Positions 1,249-8,198 of a stretch of 11,142 nucleotides of DNA are shown here, piece by piece. The notes beneath the pieces are model-generated. The model made no database searches and was not told the DNA's origin. It saw only the letters and a program-made list of their open reading frames with translations. This DNA is from an uncultured bacterium (GTDB taxonomy: Bacteria > Patescibacteriota > Patescibacteriia > CAIQCM01): assembly GCA_903870305.1 (NCBI GenBank), contig CAIQCM010000042.1, positions 1-11,142 on the forward strand, written 5' to 3'. The translations under genes and the position numbers were made by a program. Positions within the stretch are counted from its first letter, which is position 1. Every line of letters begins with the position of its first letter.

Positions 1249-1249
1249 A
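977..1249 (+). CDS. Doubtful 90-aa small ORF, translationally coupled to the ligase gene
   Basis: An ATG at 977 is preceded by a good Shine-Dalgarno GGAGG (965-969, 7-nt spacing), which most genes in this window lack. The frame stays open for 90 codons and its TAA overlaps the ATG of the ligase gene (TAATG, 1247-1251), a typical coupling arrangement. Against it, the predicted protein is rich in Arg, Ser and Pro, poor in acidic residues, matches no family I know, and passes straight through perfect DNA hairpins at 999-1026 and 1124-1142. The frame also extends upstream to 842, but only the 977 start has a ribosome site. It could be a leader peptide, a real small protein, or chance in a structured RNA. 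Confidence 0.2.
   Translation: MYLNELTHAVPLWRDRVFPMSRRPFATTMFYVVSHRASAYPPVSWASLLASRIGKPLAVDQKNEEKHSATGAPRAQGLLLSVLGMTEGGR
999..1029 (+). terminator. Terminator-like hairpin inside the leader region
   Basis: Perfect 11-bp stem, ACGCGGTCCCG (999-1009) with CGGGACCGCGT (1016-1026), loop TTGTGG, running into TTTT at 1026-1029. An outer stem GACTCA (994-999) with TGAGTC (1035-1040) can form around it. The T-run is short, so termination or attenuation ahead of the ligase gene is possible but not certain. Confidence 0.35.
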
Positions 1250-2775
1250 TGTTAAGATTCGTTAAAGAATATATGACGGAACCGACAACGCCGGCCGGAA
1301 TGATCTTGGAAAAGATCTATTCGGAGGGATCCCCTTATTGGAAAACAATGCGCCGCTTGAACGCTTTGGCGTCCTTTCGTTCTTCGGCGGCGCGCGTCCC
1401 CGCTTACGGGGATTTTTTGCGCGCCGCGGGCGTCGATCCCGCGACGGTCAAAACAACGGCCGACCTTGGAAAAGTGCCGCCGGTCGGAAAAAATAATTAT
1501 CTTCGCGCGTATCCGCTTGAACGGCTTTGCGCGAACGGATCGCTTTCGGAGCATTCCACCGTTTTTACTTCGACCTCGGGTTCGACCGGCGACTCGTTCT
1601 ATTTTCCAAGGGACAACGCGATTGACCTGCGTTCGTCCGTCTATCACGAGATGTTTTTGAAGAATTCGCGCACTCCTCCCAACGGCTCGACCCTGGTCGT
1701 GGTCTGTTTCGGCATGGGCGTTTGGATCGGCGGGATCATCACCTACCAGGCCTTTAAGATGATCGCCGAGCGAAACTATCGGCTCGCGATCATCACCCCG
1801 GGGGTCAACAAAGGGGAGATATTTGAAGCGTTGAAAAGCGTCGCGCCCCGTTACGATCAGGTGGTTTTGTGCGGCTATCCGCCGTTTATGAAAGACATTG
1901 TCGATGAAGCGCCGCTCCATGGCGTTGATTGGAAAAAGTTCAAGGTCAAAATGATCTTCGCGGCTGAAGCGTTCTCGGAAGATTTCCGCGATCATATCGC
2001 CGAGCGCGTCGGCATTCGCGATGTTTATCGCGAGACGATGAACATTTACGGCAGCGCCGACTTGGGCACCATGGCCGAGGAGACCCCGGTATGCATCTTG
2101 ATAAGACGGCTCGCGCTTTCGAACACGACGCTGTATAAGAAAATTTTTAAAGAAGCCGCCCGTCTTCCGACCTTGGCGCAATTCCACCCCGGTTTCATAA
2201 ATTTTGAATGCGATAACCGAAAGGTTTATTGCACAAGCGATAGCGTCTTGCCGCTCGTGCGTTATGAGATAGGCGACAACGGCGGCGTCATGGACTTTGA
2301 CGAAGTGGAAAAAATTTTTGCCGAAGAGGGGATGGATCTGGAGAATGAGGTTAAAAAAGCCGGCCTTGCCGATTCGCTTTGCAAATTTCCTTTCATTTAT
2401 ATTTATGAGCGGACCGACCTGTCGACCAAGTTCTACGGGGCGATCGTTTATCCCGAGCATGTGCGCGGCGGCCTTTTAAGGGCCGAACTCGAGGAGCATA
2501 TCACCGGAAAATTCACCATGTCGGTGAAGCACGACGACAAGATGGACGAATATCTCGAGATCAACGTTGAATTAAAGCCGGGCGCGAACGGTTCCGAAAA
2601 GTTGGCTCAAGACGTGTCAAAATGCGTCTTTGAAAGTTTGACGGCCAAAAGCGCCGAATATAAGAATAACGCCAATATGTTCTCGGCCAAGGTGAAGCCG
2701 AAGATAATCTTCTGGCCGCACGAGCATCCGGAGCATTTTCGCCCCGGCGCCAAGCAAAAGTGGGTTAAAAAGTGA
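1249..2775 (+). CDS. PaaK/LuxE-like acyl-adenylate ligase (phenylacetate-CoA ligase family)
   Basis: A 508-aa ANL-superfamily enzyme expected to activate a carboxylic acid with ATP to an acyl-AMP, then pass it to CoA or another acceptor. Visible core motifs are the phosphate-binding loop TSTSGSTG (107-114), IYGSADLG (266-273; the adenine/Mg motif with YGSAD in place of YGxTE), and LPLVRYEIGD (334-343; the ribose-binding RYxxGD motif). The C-terminus ends GAKQKWVKK, where a lysine could serve as the catalytic lysine of the mobile subdomain. FGMGVWIGG (154-162) is typical of the PaaK/LuxE branch. The length fits; no signal peptide is evident, so it should be cytoplasmic. The start at 1249 overlaps the stop of the small upstream ORF; an alternative is Met9 at 1273. 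It heads the gene run, with the ThiF-like gene following after a 62-bp spacer. Substrate unknown; phenylacetate is not implied. Confidence 0.85.
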   Translation: MLRFVKEYMTEPTTPAGMILEKIYSEGSPYWKTMRRLNALASFRSSAARVPAYGDFLRAAGVDPATVKTTADLGKVPPVGKNNYLRAYPLERLCANGSLSEHSTVFTSTSGSTGDSFYFPRDNAIDLRSSVYHEMFLKNSRTPPNGSTLVVVCFGMGVWIGGIITYQAFKMIAERNYRLAIITPGVNKGEIFEALKSVAPRYDQVVLCGYPPFMKDIVDEAPLHGVDWKKFKVKMIFAAEAFSEDFRDHIAERVGIRDVYRETMNIYGSADLGTMAEETPVCILIRRLALSNTTLYKKIFKEAARLPTLAQFHPGFINFECDNRKVYCTSDSVLPLVRYEIGDNGGVMDFDEVEKIFAEEGMDLENEVKKAGLADSLCKFPFIYIYERTDLSTKFYGAIVYPEHVRGGLLRAELEEHITGKFTMSVKHDDKMDEYLEINVELKPGANGSEKLAQDVSKCVFESLTAKSAEYKNNANMFSAKVKPKIIFWPHEHPEHFRPGAKQKWVKK

Positions 2776-2784
2776 CCAAAGTCC

Positions 2785-2829
2785 TTTAACAAGACGGTCT
2801 TTTAATGTATGATTCAATTGTCTTAAGAC
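2785..2829 (+). promoter_or_regulatory. Possible promoter with paired operator-like palindromes
   Basis: In the 62-bp spacer after the ligase gene, TTTAAC (2785-2790) and TATGAT (2808-2813) are separated by 17 bp and resemble -35 (3/6) and -10 (5/6) boxes. Two palindromes share the arms AAGAC/GTCTT: AAGACGGTCTT (2791-2801) between the boxes and GTCTTAAGAC (2820-2829) just downstream of the -10. The layout suggests a regulated internal promoter for the ThiF-like gene, but it rests on pattern alone. Confidence 0.35.
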
Positions 2830-2837
2830 GATCAAAT

Positions 2838-2909
2838 ATGGATACGATAAAAAAGTTTATTGAAAGCGCGCGCGCGGCGCATCTCGGACACAAACCGGTT
2901 TTTTTTTGA
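2838..2909 (+). other. Probable frameshift or recoding site at T9 in the ThiF gene N-terminus
   Basis: An ATG at 2838 opens a frame reading MDTIKKFIESARAAHLGHKPVFF, which ends at TGA 2907-2909 directly after nine T (2899-2907). Removing one T joins it seamlessly to the downstream ThiF frame as KPVFFDLNEP. The alternative is a TTG start at 2860 giving an Arg-rich, unnatural opening (MKARARRISDTNRFFF). The ATG frame therefore looks like the true N-terminus, with a one-base excess from mutation, assembly error, or a slippage site. Confidence 0.6.
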
Positions 2910-4026
2910 TCTTAACGAACCGGCGGCGCGGGAGGCCCTCGGCAAGCTTTTTGCCGACGGGCGCGTTTGCCGCGTTTCCGATGACTACAAAGAACAACTT
3001 CGCGAGCTTTTTGCCGTTAACGATCCGCCGCTGGTTTATTCGCCGGGGTTCAAGATCAAGTTCGAGGAGTATTACGACGGTTTGCAAAAGGATCGCGATA
3101 TCAATGCTCATGGCAAATGGGTTTATTTTCCTTGGAGCGCCGGCCTTACCCATATCCTTGATGAAGCCGATTTTCATAAGGTCAGGACGGCGCGGAACAA
3201 GAACCTGATCAACAAAGACGAGCAGATGAAATTTTATAACGCCACCGTCGGCGTGGCCGGTCTTTCGGTCGGTTCAAGCGTGGCGCTCGCGCTTGTTATG
3301 GGGGGAGGGGCCAAGCATATAAAGCTTGCCGATATGGATCGACTGGCGCTTTCAAACACCAATCGGATCCTTGCCGGCGCCGATGAACTCGGCGAACTCA
3401 AGGTTGAATTGTCCGCGCGAAAAATATACGAGATCAACCCGTATGCGCAGGTCGAAATTTTTCCGGAAGGACTGACCAAGGACTCCATCGGAAACTTCTT
3501 TGACGGACTCGATATCGTGATCGATGAGATCGACAGTTTGGCTTTCAAATATTTGATACGCGTTGAGGCGAAAAGGCACGGCATTGCGGTTGTCATGGCA
3601 GCCGACAACGGCGATAACGCGGTCGTTGACATCGAGCGATACGATCTGGATCCGGCGACGCTGTTCTTCCACGGCCGCATGGGCGACGACATTTCCTTTG
3701 AGATGCTTTCCGGGCTCGACAAGTTCGGCATCGGGAAAATGATCACGAAACACGTCGGAGCCGAGAACGTGACGGAAAGAATGCAGCAGTCGCTTTTGGA
3801 AATGGGCAAGACGATCGTCTCGTGGCCGCAGCTGGGCGGCGCGGCGTTCGTTAATGGCGCGGCCGTGGCCTATTGCGTAAGAAAGATCTTGAACGGGCAG
3901 CCGTTGGAAATGAACCGCGCCCTTATTTCGCTTGATCAACAGCTTGTACCCGATTTCGACTCGCCGGAACAGATCGAAAAACGCCATCAACTGTCCGAAT
4001 CGTTCAAAAAGATCTTCGGCCTATAA
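2860..4026 (+). CDS. E1/ThiF-like adenylating enzyme, Rv1355c (MoeY) N-terminal type
   Basis: A 388-aa protein with a ThiF/MoeB/E1-like Rossmann domain that would adenylate a carboxylate using ATP. The nucleotide-binding loop is VGVAGLSVGSSVA (130-142), followed by the acidic strand end LADMD (156-160) and the E1 signature SNTNRI (165-170), with a conserved-type Lys181 and INPYAQVEIF (192-201). The N-terminal segment with WVYFPWSAGLTHILDEADFHKVRTARN (87-113) resembles the ThiF part of mycobacterial Rv1355c/MoeY. There is no CxxC zinc pair and no cysteine in the region where ThiF/MoeB/E1 carry the catalytic Cys, so it may adenylate without forming a thioester or persulfide. The open frame only permits a TTG start at 2860; the real start is probably ATG 2838 across the T9 run, giving about 395 aa. 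The nitroreductase-like gene follows after 14 bp. Confidence 0.82.
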   Translation: MKARARRISDTNRFFFDLNEPAAREALGKLFADGRVCRVSDDYKEQLRELFAVNDPPLVYSPGFKIKFEEYYDGLQKDRDINAHGKWVYFPWSAGLTHILDEADFHKVRTARNKNLINKDEQMKFYNATVGVAGLSVGSSVALALVMGGGAKHIKLADMDRLALSNTNRILAGADELGELKVELSARKIYEINPYAQVEIFPEGLTKDSIGNFFDGLDIVIDEIDSLAFKYLIRVEAKRHGIAVVMAADNGDNAVVDIERYDLDPATLFFHGRMGDDISFEMLSGLDKFGIGKMITKHVGAENVTERMQQSLLEMGKTIVSWPQLGGAAFVNGAAVAYCVRKILNGQPLEMNRALISLDQQLVPDFDSPEQIEKRHQLSESFKKIFGL

Positions 4027-4040
4027 ATTCCAAGACCGTT

Positions 4041-5096
4041 ATGAATAACGATATCGAGAAGATAATAAAGGACGGCACGCTCGCGCCGTCGGGAGAGAAC
4101 TGCCAGCCGTGGAAATTCAGCGTGTCCGGCGACAGGATCAGCATTTATAATCTGCCCGAAGCCGATCGGTCGCTTTATAATTCCAAGCAAAAAGGATCGT
4201 ACATCGCGCATGGCGCGCTCATTGAGAATATCGCCTTGAGCGCCGCGCGATACGGTTATGACGCGGCTGTCGAGCTTTTTCCCACGCCCGCCGTGCCCAA
4301 TCTCGTCTCGGTCATTACATTGAAGAAAGCGACGCCAAAAATCGACCCGCTGTATCAATATCTGGAAAAACGCTGCACCAACCGCAAGGATTTTTCCGGT
4401 AAGAAATTGTCGACGGAACAAAAGAATGCGCTTATTGCCGCCGCGCGCGAGACCGGTTTCGGTGAATTGCGGCTCATTGACGATGCGCCGTCGCTTGCCA
4501 AGCTCGCTCCGGCGCTGGCGGTAAACGACCGGCTGATCTTCGAGAATAAATTGCTGCACGATTTTTTCTACGGACACATTCTTTGGAAGGACGAGGAACA
4601 AGATAAAGCCGGCGGATTCTATATTAAGACCTTGGAGTTTTTGCCGCACCAGCTTAAGGGCGTCCAGATGATGAAAAAGTGGCCCGTTCTGAAGATCATG
4701 AACAAGATCGCCGGCGTGTCCAAAATGATCGCCAAAGAGAACGCGGCAAAATACGCGGCCTCCGGCACTTTGGGCGCGATCGTGGTAAATGGCGATGCGA
4801 GTAAGGACTTTGTGAACGCCGGTCGCGCCGTGGCGCGCGTTTGGCTAAGAGCGGCTTCGCTTGGTCTCTCCGTCCATCCTTGCACCGGCGTCGTTTTTTT
4901 TAACGAACAAATAAAGGACGGGGGCGCGGCCAATTTTTCCGAGGCGCAGCGGCTGATGATCGACGAAGCTTACAAACAGATCGTTTCGGTCTTCGGCGCC
5001 GAAGGGAAAACCATTCCCATGCTCTGGCGCCTCGGGTTCGCGGATGCGCCCACGGCCCGCTCTATGAGAATGCCGCCTGTTATAACGCATGAATAA
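4041..5096 (+). CDS. FMN nitroreductase-like protein (Acg/Rv1355c C-terminal type)
   Basis: A 351-aa protein with the nitroreductase-like fold, expected to bind FMN and use NAD(P)H for a two-electron redox step. LAPSGENCQPW (14-24) is the flavin-contacting motif near the N-terminus, YIAHGALIENIALSAARYG (54-72) is a core helix, RCTNRKDF (111-118) matches the Acg-like branch, and ARVWLRAASLGLSVHPCTG (265-283) is the second core region. The tail LWRLGFADAPTARSMR (328-343) resembles the end of Rv1355c-type ThiF-nitroreductase fusions. The length exceeds typical nitroreductases (about 200 aa), as in two-lobed Acg-like proteins. No Shine-Dalgarno is visible. It lies 14 bp after the ThiF-like gene and overlaps the methyltransferase gene by 8 nt, so the three are very likely co-expressed. 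Substrate unknown. Confidence 0.82.
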   Translation: MNNDIEKIIKDGTLAPSGENCQPWKFSVSGDRISIYNLPEADRSLYNSKQKGSYIAHGALIENIALSAARYGYDAAVELFPTPAVPNLVSVITLKKATPKIDPLYQYLEKRCTNRKDFSGKKLSTEQKNALIAAARETGFGELRLIDDAPSLAKLAPALAVNDRLIFENKLLHDFFYGHILWKDEEQDKAGGFYIKTLEFLPHQLKGVQMMKKWPVLKIMNKIAGVSKMIAKENAAKYAASGTLGAIVVNGDASKDFVNAGRAVARVWLRAASLGLSVHPCTGVVFFNEQIKDGGAANFSEAQRLMIDEAYKQIVSVFGAEGKTIPMLWRLGFADAPTARSMRMPPVITHE

Positions 5097-6018
5097 TATG
5101 TCAAACCGAAACCAAGAAATAAACGACGCAATAAGCAAACTGGAGTCGTTCAAAGCCGATCCCGCTTATGCGAAAGACGCGTATGCGATCGATGAGAACA
5201 TTATCTTCTTGAAAAGCATCAAGAATATTTTCAGTTATATCGGCTGGCTGATCAAACGCCCGAAGATGATCGCGCCTGAACGGCTTTTGGAACTGACCGA
5301 TTTTCCGGTTGAAGCGTGGGATCTTAAAATGCATCGCCGGCTAATTGACGTCGAGCGCAACAAACATATCGGGGTTGGAAAACCGCTCGTCGACAAGATT
5401 TTGGCATATGTCGAATCCGAAGACCGTCCGCTCACGCTCGTCAATTTGGGTGCCGGCGGCATGGAGGTCGACCGTCAAGTTATAGCCGCGCTTTTGGAAA
5501 AAAAATATTCGCGACCGCTTGTCATCATCGGCGTCGACAAGTCGCGAACGACGCAAAAGATCGCCAAAGAAAATCTCGGCTCATTGGGGAATGGTGTGAA
5601 CGTGATCGAGCGCGATCGACTGACGCGCGGCGAACTCGACGCGATCAAAGCGGTGAACGCGGGTATAACGGTCATTCTGTGCGGTAACGATATTTTCGGC
5701 CTGGACAAGGAATTTCCCGCCGGCTCGTTCGATCTCATATATCACTCGATCTTTAAGCATCATCTGCCGTCCGATACGCGGCCGTGCCTCGATGAATTGA
5801 TGAAAAAACTGTCGCGAACCGCCTATGAATATGATGGGTTTAGAACCTGGCAGGTTATTGTGCCGCTAACGGTTGTGGCGTGGAATTATCCGTTTTTTCT
5901 CGGGGCGGTCGTTTTTTCAAACATCAGGTTTGATAAGGAACCGGTCGTAAAAGCGCGCGCCGGAGCGCGCATCCTTTCTTTTCATAAGAATACCGGACAC
6001 TACCTCTTGGAGCTATGA
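5089..6018 (+). CDS. SAM-dependent methyltransferase-like protein
   Basis: A 309-aa protein with a class I (Rossmann) methyltransferase core after a helical N-terminal domain (1-110). Motif I is VNLGAGGMEVD (118-128), a SAM-binding glycine loop; the acidic end of strand 2 is IIGVDKS (146-152); motif IV and the following segment are FDLIYHSIFKHHLP (214-227). The C-terminal part (about 255-278, VIVPLTVVAWNYPFFLGAVVF) is strongly hydrophobic and may contact a membrane or a lipophilic substrate. The ATG at 5089 overlaps the preceding gene; ATG 5098 is an alternative start. Its stop overlaps the next start as ATGA (6015-6018). The core is clear enough for a family call, but the methyl acceptor cannot be read from the sequence. 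Confidence 0.7.
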   Translation: MNNMSNRNQEINDAISKLESFKADPAYAKDAYAIDENIIFLKSIKNIFSYIGWLIKRPKMIAPERLLELTDFPVEAWDLKMHRRLIDVERNKHIGVGKPLVDKILAYVESEDRPLTLVNLGAGGMEVDRQVIAALLEKKYSRPLVIIGVDKSRTTQKIAKENLGSLGNGVNVIERDRLTRGELDAIKAVNAGITVILCGNDIFGLDKEFPAGSFDLIYHSIFKHHLPSDTRPCLDELMKKLSRTAYEYDGFRTWQVIVPLTVVAWNYPFFLGAVVFSNIRFDKEPVVKARAGARILSFHKNTGHYLLEL

Positions 6019-7616
6019 ACATATACCGCATTTTGACCGCCAATGTTATCGAGGTGGTCAACAATCTCCACCTAAAAAATCTTGACCTGCTTACGGTTGG
6101 AATTTCGATCGCCGCCATTTCTATTTTGGGTTTTGTCATCTATTTCAACAATCGCTCAAGCATTACGAACAAGACCTTTGCCGCCCTCTCCGCCTCCGCC
6201 ATGATCTGGGCCGCTGTTAATTACTTGAGCTACCAGACGAATAATTATGCCGAGCTGACGCTATGGCTTCTGCGAACCGTATTATTTTTTGCCGTTTGGT
6301 TCGCATATTTTCTTTTCAAATTAACCTATGTTTTTCCGGGGAACGAAATGGTTTTTCCCAAGTGGTATAGATCATTTCTGGTGCCTTTTGTGGTCTTTAC
6401 CTCGCTTTTAACCTTGACGCCGTTTGTTTTTTTCGGGATCTCGCAAATCTCTGCCGTCGGTTCGGTATCGCATGCAACGATCCTCCCGGGAATCGCGGTA
6501 TTCGGGATCGTTGTTTTCATTTTAATTTTTGGAAGTTTTTTCAATTTGATAAAAAAATTACGCGAAGCGAAAAAGGCCGAAAAACCGAAGTTCCGCCTGA
6601 TGCTTGTCGGAACCATTATCACCTTTGGTTTGATCATCACCTTTAATTTTATTTTTCCGATCGCTCTTTTTAACGTTAAATACATCCCCTTGGGCGGTCT
6701 CTTTATCTTCCCTTTTGTCGCCTTCACCGCCTACGCCATTTTTAAACACCGGCTTTTCAACGTTAAGAATATCGTCACCGCCGTTTTCACTTTTTTCCTT
6801 TGCTTTGTGACGCTGGTCGAGATCGTCTTCGCCCCCGACACAACGCAAATGCTGCTTCGGATCGCCGTCTTTTTCGTCTCGCTCATGATCAGCATCAAGT
6901 TGGTCCAGAATACTTTTGAATTGGAAGCGGCCAACGAGAAAAAAGCCGAGTTCATGTCTTTCGCCTCGCACGAATTGCGGTCGCCGATCACTTCCATTAA
7001 GAATTATTCCGAGCTGCTTCTTGAGGGCGGTATGGGCAAGCTTAATCCGGATATTAAGGACGGCGTGCAAAAGATATTGGTATCGGCGAACGGCGCGATC
7101 GCGCTTATCGCCCAATACTTGAACAAGGCCAAAATGGAACTTAATCAGTTCACGTATTTCATCACCGTTTTCGACATTGCCAAAACGGTTCGCGCCGCCG
7201 TGGACAATGTCCAAGTGAATGCCGAACAAAAAGGCGTTTTCGTGACATTGAAGCTTGATGAAAAAGCGGTTGTTAACGTGAAAGCTGACGAAGGCAAGGT
7301 CAGGGAAGCCATTGGCAACATTTTGGATAATGCCATTAAATTCACCAAGATCGGCGGCGTTCTCGTTACGGTCGAGGACGGGCGCGACAAGGTCATTGTC
7401 AAGATCGCCGATACCGGCGCCGGGATCAGTCCCGACATGATGCCGCTCCTTTTTAAAAAATTCTCAAAAGATGATTCGCAAAAGAACATTATGGGCAGCG
7501 GCCTCGGGCTGTTCCTCTCCCGAACGTTCGTCGACGCCATGAAAGGGCGCTTGTGGGCGGAATCCGAAGGCGAAGGCCGCGGCTCGCAATTTTATATCGA
7601 ACTTCCAAAAACATGA
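6015..7616 (+). CDS. Membrane sensor histidine kinase with multi-TM N-terminal domain
   Basis: A 533-aa sensor kinase. Residues 1-297 contain eight or nine hydrophobic segments (about 25-44, 54-73, 82-104, 119-140, 157-178, 194-215, 225-243, 252-272, 279-297), like the 7TM sensor regions of this kinase group. The cytoplasmic part has the HisKA phosphoacceptor SFASHELRSPITS with His319, then an HATPase_c domain with N box NILDNA (435-440), G1 DTGAGI (466-471), F box FKKFSKD and G2 GSGLGL (494-499). All catalytic boxes are present, so it should be active. It overlaps the methyltransferase gene by 4 nt (ATGA), with a close GGAG at 6009-6012. No response regulator lies in the window, so it is an orphan here. 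The signal is unknown; the context suggests something linked to the upstream enzymes. Confidence 0.92.
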   Translation: MNIYRILTANVIEVVNNLHLKNLDLLTVGISIAAISILGFVIYFNNRSSITNKTFAALSASAMIWAAVNYLSYQTNNYAELTLWLLRTVLFFAVWFAYFLFKLTYVFPGNEMVFPKWYRSFLVPFVVFTSLLTLTPFVFFGISQISAVGSVSHATILPGIAVFGIVVFILIFGSFFNLIKKLREAKKAEKPKFRLMLVGTIITFGLIITFNFIFPIALFNVKYIPLGGLFIFPFVAFTAYAIFKHRLFNVKNIVTAVFTFFLCFVTLVEIVFAPDTTQMLLRIAVFFVSLMISIKLVQNTFELEAANEKKAEFMSFASHELRSPITSIKNYSELLLEGGMGKLNPDIKDGVQKILVSANGAIALIAQYLNKAKMELNQFTYFITVFDIAKTVRAAVDNVQVNAEQKGVFVTLKLDEKAVVNVKADEGKVREAIGNILDNAIKFTKIGGVLVTVEDGRDKVIVKIADTGAGISPDMMPLLFKKFSKDDSQKNIMGSGLGLFLSRTFVDAMKGRLWAESEGEGRGSQFYIELPKT

Positions 7617-7642
7617 AAAGAGACCCCGAGGGGTCTCTTTTT
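7616..7642. terminator. Bidirectional intrinsic terminator between convergent genes
   Basis: AAAAGAGACCC (7616-7626) pairs with GGGTCTCTTTT (7631-7641) around the loop CGAG. It has a T-run at the 3' end on both strands, and it lies exactly between the TGA of the kinase gene and the TAA of the minus-strand kinase-like gene. It should stop transcription from both sides. Confidence 0.92.
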
Positions 7643-8198
7643 AGATCAAGCCGCGTTCTTTCAATGCGGCCATTATTTTATCGGCGTTCTCTTGCGGACC
7701 CTTGGCAGCGGTCGTATCGAGGACAAAGTCGTAATGCGACGGATCAAAGTAATTGTCAATTCCGTACAGGCGCTTAAATTTGGCGACATACCGCGCGACG
7801 CGCGTGGCCACGATCTTCCGAGTTTCTTCAACGGATGAATAATCGGGCTCATCGCTCCTATGCAGTCCGGTTTTTTTATCTTCGAAAATGCGCTGCGCGC
7901 CTTCGCGTTCATCGACCGTGACCAAGATCTTAAAGGAATGGGGGATCGTATACCAAGCGATCAATCCCTCGACAATGATATTGTCCTCGGTCTTGCCCAA
8001 TTTTTTTTGAAAGCCGTCGATCTCATGGTCGGCGTCATCGTTGCCGGAAATGAGTTCGTCGATCGTCACGCCATTCTCATTGGCCATCTTTCCAAGAATA
8101 TCGCCCGCCGAATAAAATTTCATGCCCAAGCGCTTGGCGAGCACTTTAGCGGCCGAGGTTTTTCCTCCGCCCGGGACGCCGGTGATGGTGATGATCAT
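7641..8198 (-). CDS. Cytidylate-kinase-like P-loop nucleoside monophosphate kinase
   Basis: A 185-aa soluble P-loop kinase of the archaeal-type cytidylate kinase / AAA_18 group, likely transferring phosphate from ATP to CMP/dCMP. The Walker A is GVPGGGKTS (7-15); FYSAGDILGKMA (28-39) matches the NMP-binding segment of archaeal CMP kinases; an Arg-rich lid (EETRKIVATRVARYVAKFKRLYG) and the closing YDFVLDTT are family-typical. The length fits the family. The start MIITITGVPGGGKT is the usual N-terminus; no Shine-Dalgarno is seen upstream. It is the last of three minus-strand genes and ends at the shared terminator. CMP is the likeliest acceptor, but another nucleotide or small molecule cannot be excluded, because many CPR proteins of this type are only annotated as AAA family. 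Confidence 0.8.
   Translation of the reverse strand: MIITITGVPGGGKTSAAKVLAKRLGMKFYSAGDILGKMANENGVTIDELISGNDDADHEIDGFQKKLGKTEDNIIVEGLIAWYTIPHSFKILVTVDEREGAQRIFEDKKTGLHRSDEPDYSSVEETRKIVATRVARYVAKFKRLYGIDNYFDPSHYDFVLDTTAAKGPQENADKIMAALKERGLI

Follow-up and report, generated by a model that had tools for sequence, protein, structure and literature searches.

A recurrent Patescibacteria gene neighbourhood joins a PaaK-type ligase, a ThiF-like enzyme and a nitroreductase to a seven-transmembrane histidine kinase and may encode a sensor-coupled oxazolone-type pathway

Results

Conservation of the gene neighbourhood

We analysed a contig of an uncultured patescibacterium (CAIQCM010000042.1, assembly GCA_903870305.1), which is 11,142 bases long, is hereafter called the window, and belongs to an assembly of 947,774 bases with an estimated completeness of 90.5 %. 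It carries a run of five genes, encoding a PaaK-type adenylate-forming (ANL) ligase, a ThiF/E1-like enzyme, a nitroreductase-superfamily flavin enzyme, a methyltransferase and a histidine kinase with an N-terminal seven-transmembrane (7TM) sensor; all five lie on the forward strand, as an initial annotation had described. Ligase, ThiF-like enzyme, nitroreductase and 7TM kinase form a repeated neighbourhood across Patescibacteria, and the gene run is real rather than a chance association. We give an even chance to the reading that the operon makes an acyl- or aryl-amino-acid/oxazolone molecule and carries the dedicated receptor for it.

A ligase profile matched 56 of 379 phylum genomes, 54 of them at E < 1e-60. 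Outside the class of the window, 47 ligase regions were drawn from 46 of the 47 genomes with strong matches (G349 contributed two; G390, with two partial matches, was left out). Within 6 kb on the same strand, 41 of these regions carried a 7TM kinase, 35 a ThiF gene and 24 a nitroreductase, with a dehydrogenase in 10, a receiver in eight and a lyase in seven. Homologues were therefore not scattered without a common neighbourhood, the outcome that would have spoken against the association. HisKA_7TM (PF16927) matches, 58 in 26 genomes of approximately 1 Mb, give a chance expectation of about 0.014 per same-strand 6-kb neighbourhood, whereas a more sensitive local profile placed a kinase in 41 of 47. 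The six regions lacking a kinase comprised three with the cluster at a contig end or no more than about 1.5 kb away from one (L190, L193, L206), one on a 5.9-kb contig (L214) and two inside long contigs (L208, L210). The thresholds were our own choice (ligase 200, ThiF 40 for the 47-region count or 150 for a recount, 6 kb). The window and loci L030–L065 made up the training set of the local profiles, so scores at those loci are not independent, whilst the FeeM profile was trained on the four copies of genome G034. Judged from equal contig size, four of the 47 regions have contigs in common with the training set; dropping these left a 7TM kinase in 37 of 43.

Within the class, strong ThiF matches (E < 1e-45) were found in 17 of 285 genomes and any match in 24; strong ligase matches occurred in 20 class genomes, all of which were opened except G152. 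The closest public loci by ThiF identity belonged to bacterium nzgw356 (L033, 76 %), Parcubacteria group bacterium GW2011_GWA1_40_21 (L035, 70 %), a Patescibacteria group bacterium (L034, 69 %) and a Taylorbacteria genome (L036, 68 %), and 22 of the 33 public loci compared in this way had a 7TM kinase within 6 kb. One locus in G034 (L030) displayed two tandem ligase–ThiF pairs, with a single kinase and a response regulator downstream.

The 7TM kinase and its sensor lineage

The kinase gene (6015–7616, forward strand) encodes an N-terminal 7TM sensor, a HisKA domain with an ASHELR motif from residue 317, and a HATPase domain, and was the sole HisKA_7TM match found in its genome. The Pfam model is incomplete, giving no match in sister genome G001, whose kinase is 73 % identical to that of the window. 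Fifteen cluster genomes contained 23 HisKA_7TM matches, 16 of which lay within 10 kb of a ligase-type cluster, four at the FeeM–ThiF cluster of G034 and three elsewhere.

A tree of 118 sensor domains, built like our other trees by quick maximum likelihood with Shimodaira–Hasegawa-like approximate likelihood ratio test (SH-aLRT) support only, contained one branch (SH-aLRT 100) of 68 rows, comprising 67 cluster kinases and one control (L226). The cluster label changed eight times on this tree compared to 32 in shuffles, indicating that this branch of sensors is linked with the cluster. Thirteen cluster-labelled kinases fell outside it: those of six ligase and kinase loci without ThiF (L199, L201, L202, L205, L207 and L211), L203, two extra copies at L053 and four at the mixed locus L101 of G034. 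At the six loci without ThiF, the ligases as well as the sensors lay outside the main branches. Four other loci without ThiF were nevertheless inside the main sensor branch (L170, L186, L188 and L212).

The ThiF–nitroreductase pair

The ThiF-like gene (2838–4026, forward strand) is open from a TTG at 2860, giving 388 aa. The frame from an ATG at 2838 encodes an N terminus like that of relatives, but is cut short at nine consecutive T residues (2899–2907), and the body lies in the other frame; the length of this run is perhaps an error, or real. The protein matched the N-terminal half of the Rv1355c/TrzS family (NF005901, residues 9–371, E 5.4e-95, 319 bits), with the next family at 79 bits (2.8e-22). 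The score is under the 476-bit cut-off, which was made for the fused protein. Motifs comprised GLSVGS (134), R169, K181, D225 and WPQLGG (322), and the adenylation-motif residues, including D225, were invariant in comparison with a Rhodococcus Rv1355c-family protein. This was the protein aligned for the comparison with Asp217 of TrzS (M. smegmatis numbering), the M. smegmatis sequence itself being outside the alignment. All four solved structures matched by sequence at E 1e-8 were TcdA/CsdL, the tRNA t6A dehydratase. In this enzyme, too, ring closure takes place at an adenylated carboxylate, the substrate being tRNA.

The nitroreductase gene (4041–5096, forward strand, 351 aa) starts 14 nt 3′ of the ThiF gene and encodes a protein of the Rv1355c C-terminal/Acg type with the motifs APSGENCQPW (15) and KRCTNRK (110). 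It matched NF011424 (1.1e-61), a related fusion model, slightly above NF005901 (3.1e-58), followed by NF047509 (2.5e-38). R111 and R115 were invariant relative to the Rhodococcus protein, which again was the one aligned for the comparison with Arg540 and Gln651 of the flavin mononucleotide site of M. smegmatis TrzS.

In mycobacteria, Rv1355c/TrzS is described as cyclising and then desaturating N-acyl-tryptophan to an oxazolone, with desaturases that consume O2 (PMC12856293), and TyzA/B/C are described as the unfused version of the pathway (PMC10404671). Oxazolones are broken down by acids and by alcohols (PMC12856293). Given this published role of the Rv1355c family, the ThiF–nitroreductase pair is best read as the cyclase and desaturase of an oxazolone-like pathway. 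TrzAS (Rv1356c–Rv1355c and relatives, producing N-acyl tryptazolone) has a cyclase and desaturase of the same family, NF005901 spanning both halves, but combines them in one fused protein with the N-acyltransferase TrzA, whereas the window has two genes, a PaaK-type ligase and a 7TM kinase, and no acyltransferase was found there. The trz locus has cyclic di-GMP genes nearby (PMC12856293). A ThiF and nitroreductase pair is also common to the window and the TyzABC (M. tuberculosis), OxzAB (Pseudoalteromonas rubra) tyrazolone and stieleriacine/NasY clusters. The accounts consulted of the tyz, oxz and NasY clusters have them depend on an N-acyl amino acid synthase and name no sensor kinase as a member.

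A ligase proposed to replace the N-acyltransferase

The ligase gene (1249–2775, forward strand) encodes 508 aa with an ANL fold of PaaK topology. It displays SGSTG (from 110), YGSAD (267), IGD (341), ERTD (387) and a C-terminal KQKWVKK (502), which we take to be the adenylation motifs and the C-terminal lysine; S110, G111, G114, Y267, G268, D343, R388 and K502 were invariant across 27 sequences. The PaaK-family AMP-ligases NatL2 and ClxA and the plant GH3 acyl-acid amido synthetases were among its structural matches, sharing the fold but only 11–18 % sequence identity. GH3 enzymes couple acids to amino acids.

No N-acyl amino acid synthase (TyzA/TrzA/NasY) was present among the annotated genes of the window, and the FeeM N-acyltransferase model (PF21926) had no match in 16 of 17 cluster genomes, including that of the window. 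We infer that a PaaK-fold ligase, acting on substrates that we likewise infer, takes the place of the N-acyltransferase of known oxazolone clusters. The window contains a TrzS/TyzB-type ThiF cyclase and an adjacent nitroreductase desaturase and presumably works alike, but because the defining acyltransferase is missing we do not class it as a tyz/trz member. The initial annotation knew of no named pathway with this gene set; in the accounts consulted neither such a ligase nor the kinase belongs to the oxazolone pathways, whereas the ThiF–nitroreductase pair corresponds to the cyclase and desaturase described for tyz, trz and oxz (PMC10404671, PMC12856293).

Methyltransferase and supply enzymes

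The methyltransferase gene (5089–6018, forward strand, 309 aa) overlaps the nitroreductase gene by 8 nt and the kinase gene by 4 nt, bearing out the overlaps initially reported. Its product had no match in a Pfam search, but displays an LGAGGMEVD motif (120) and a class I S-adenosylmethionine-methyltransferase fold (model predicted local distance difference test score 75). Stieleriacine clusters, according to their description, likewise include a methyltransferase (PMC12479983). Among the 37 loci that we clustered, the methyltransferase gene was found in four, and it is an optional accessory. The initial suggestion of a dedicated small-molecule pathway tied to sensing thus gains support from phylum-wide co-occurrence, but not for the methyltransferase as a core member.

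An amino-acid enzyme often adjoined the ligase, resembling a tryptophan dehydrogenase, an ammonia-lyase or hisC. Those tested resembled ScyB (3/3), FlxA (3/3) and hisC (2/2), with every score below the curated cut-off. PF02812 proved too widespread to mark the dehydrogenase (185 of 285 class genomes) and was dropped. The lyase label changed four times on the ligase tree (12 rows) versus eight on the ThiF tree (11 rows), suggesting that the lyase tracks the ligase better. Ten cluster-associated ammonia-lyases carry Thr-Ser-Gly at the position of the 4-methylideneimidazole-5-one (MIO) triad (L044, L048, L057, L061, L062, L182, L183, L185, L196 and L206), whereas the lyases of L107, L116 and L119 have Ala-Ser-Gly; 11 of these 13 lyases have Ser-His at what we take to be the selectivity position.

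Other 7TM and ThiF neighbourhoods

A second cluster type in the class (L101–L107) combines a FeeM-like N-acyltransferase, ThiF and 7TM proteins, and accounts for seven of eight weak-ThiF loci (L108 being without), a count based on a FeeM profile derived from the genome of L101 itself. The acyltransferase version of the pathway therefore also adjoins a sensor in the class of the window. Stand-alone 7TM proteins of approximately 230–290 aa, kin of the kinase sensor domain and some in tandem rows, were observed at L102, L107, L217 and L221.

Away from the ligase cluster, including in genomes that lack it, 7TM kinases often directly followed other small-molecule enzymes. The preceding gene encoded a BioF/Kbl-like pyridoxal phosphate enzyme at L217, a PigE/acyl-ACP-reductase-like protein at L224, a weakly FeeM-like protein at L220 (59 bits with the local profile, no Pfam match) and methyltransferase-like proteins at L215, L219 and L222. 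By eye the L217 enzyme had appeared CqsA-like, which was rejected as BioF/Kbl scored 444 bits against 206 for the autoinducer-synthase model. Kinases without such a neighbour were seen at L216, next to a gene that by eye is GatB-like, and at L218, where the neighbour reads away.

A plasmid search recovered members of the Rv1355c family on plasmids of actinobacteria, and ThiF proteins on those of Streptomyces; no PaaK gene was listed in the two plasmid neighbourhoods examined, for which the gene table is incomplete. A Streptomyces plasmid (L151, NZ_CP109451.1) pairs its ThiF gene with a GNAT gene, and a Rhodococcus plasmid (L150, NZ_AP026692.1) has a GGDEF gene near the Rv1355c-family gene.

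Flanking genes and regulatory elements of the window

On the opposite strand, 3′ of the kinase, lie ordinary genes for cytidine monophosphate (CMP) kinase, an RluA-family pseudouridine synthase and a CCA-adding enzyme. The top model for the CMP kinase (7641–8198) was the archaeal-type TIGR02173 (73.7 bits, cut-off 102.1), with bacterial cmk at 20.7. An inverted repeat of 11 pairs (7616–7641), lying where the kinase gene ends and between the convergent genes, resembles a terminator on the reverse strand; the case for it is weak, since 14 terminator-like sites were found versus 12.4 expected from shuffles. Promoter sites numbered six versus 5.5. At Rfam gathering thresholds, the window and six related loci yielded only tRNAs and one rRNA, none of them in the window, and a riboswitch or T-box in the leader (785–1248) was accordingly rejected. 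A TrmB-like regulator (2–784) was set aside as a system member because at the sister locus L033 an extra open reading frame separates the upstream regulator from the ligase.

Discussion

The families encoded by the cluster suggest a route in which the PaaK-type ligase would activate a carboxylic acid as acyl-adenylate and couple this with an amino acid, thereby doing the work of the N-acyltransferase; in many relatives the acid may itself derive from an amino acid via the accompanying dehydrogenase, ammonia-lyase or transaminase. The ThiF-like enzyme would adenylate the carboxylate of the N-acyl amino acid and close the oxazolone, as TrzS/TyzB do, the nitroreductase-type flavin enzyme would desaturate it and, in the genome of the window, the methyltransferase would decorate the product. 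The 7TM histidine kinase would then bind the product or its hydrolysis product and signal to a response regulator, permitting self- or neighbour-sensing. The substrates, the product and its identity with the kinase ligand are all putative assignments. A signalling role is the most economical account because the kinase is so constant.

Several observations weigh against this reading. The proposed chemistry is deduced from protein families, and many Patescibacteria live with little oxygen, which the model desaturases use. Gene adjacency equally fits feedback regulation without an exported signal. No 7TM kinase lay within 6 kb at 11 of the 33 ThiF-identity loci, and contig ends explain only some of these: L036 and L037 end with the contig, L034 and L046 do not, and L047 has a methyltransferase–kinase pair further downstream. 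In 23 of the 47 phylum regions no nitroreductase was found close to the ligase, some ligase and kinase pairs lack ThiF, 13 of 80 cluster-labelled kinases are not in the main sensor branch, and lyase-type clusters have sensors that do not group together in a single branch. Supply enzymes accompanied 20 of 33 ThiF-identity loci and, among the independent phylum regions, 14 of 43; the genome of the window has no aromatic ammonia-lyase match and its cluster no supply enzyme. Lyases also occur outside clusters, 15 class genomes having one that was seen beside a cluster in three (G124, G213 and G138, the last at a FeeM–ThiF locus). The ligase and ThiF trees hold different rows, and as the dehydrogenase (10 versus 10 changes) and transaminase (four versus four) labels tie between them, the difference is limited to the lyase. 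Finally, the copies in G034 itself were used to train the FeeM profile, and the first set of loci was used for the kinase profile.

It is possible that the enzymes instead make an envelope lipid or modify a membrane component, with the 7TM kinase sensing the membrane or stress and regulating the operon, so that the product is no signal. Tyrazolones are lipids and oxazolone loci have been tied to stress (discussion of PMC12856293), and the operon-like arrangement of kinase and enzymes would suit such regulation. We nevertheless regard this as unlikely, since the ligase has no partner as constant as the kinase (41/47), a single branch of sensors goes with the cluster (67 of 68 rows), and 7TM proteins also stand beside FeeM–ThiF pairs (seven of eight weak-ThiF loci), which more closely resembles synthase–receptor pairs. 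Patescibacteria are often episymbionts, and a cluster making an antimicrobial or host-acting metabolite, with the kinase controlling production or self-protection, would suit that lifestyle. Antimicrobial N-acyl tyrosine derivatives of Stieleria maiorica offer a precedent (discussion of PMC12856293). No exporter or immunity gene appeared among the annotated recurrent neighbour families, a weak objection as only a subset is annotated, and we judge this explanation improbable. E1-like enzymes classically adenylate protein C-termini, and the window's ThiF weakly matches several such families, so that ThiF and nitroreductase might act on a peptide or protein, as in ribosomally synthesized and post-translationally modified peptides or ubiquitin-like conjugation, with the ligase supplying an acyl cap. 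This appears very unlikely, as Rv1355c/TrzS, described as acting on N-acyl amino acids (PMC12856293), is by far the best ThiF match (319 versus 79 bits).

The proposed sensor-coupled oxazolone-type pathway has a partial precedent in the candidate phyla radiation, for which synthase–kinase pairs were predicted from CqsA, LuxI and PpyS homologues beside sensory kinases (PMC7567580). In those pairs, as in the window, a patescibacterial membrane sensor kinase has a biosynthetic gene as its neighbour; in our case gene context puts the putative signal synthase next to a dedicated membrane receptor. That survey began from known signal synthases, and its main text contains neither the term ‘ThiF’ nor ‘nitroreductase’. 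Among the literature matches listed, judged by titles and the openings of abstracts, none described the cluster in Patescibacteria. What would be new is an oxazolone-type pathway that relies on a ligase where the known ones use an acyltransferase, and that is coupled to a lineage of 7TM kinases, a proposal we consider about as probable as its opposite. More tentatively, and on balance somewhat doubtful, the ligase, E1-like cyclase and flavin desaturase may assemble an undescribed, phylum-wide class of self-made signal, an oxazolone of an aryl- or acyl-amino acid or a related compound, with a cognate 7TM kinase lineage to read it, 7TM kinases often marking signal-synthase genes of several chemistries.

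If true, tiny and mostly uncultured Patescibacteria would have an undescribed route by which to signal to or sense each other. With an oxazolone-type pathway coupled to a sensor in streamlined genomes, a signalling role can be tested directly, and the system would provide both a handle on how uncultured, host-dependent bacteria detect neighbours or hosts and a rule for finding more synthases, namely to follow the 7TM kinases.

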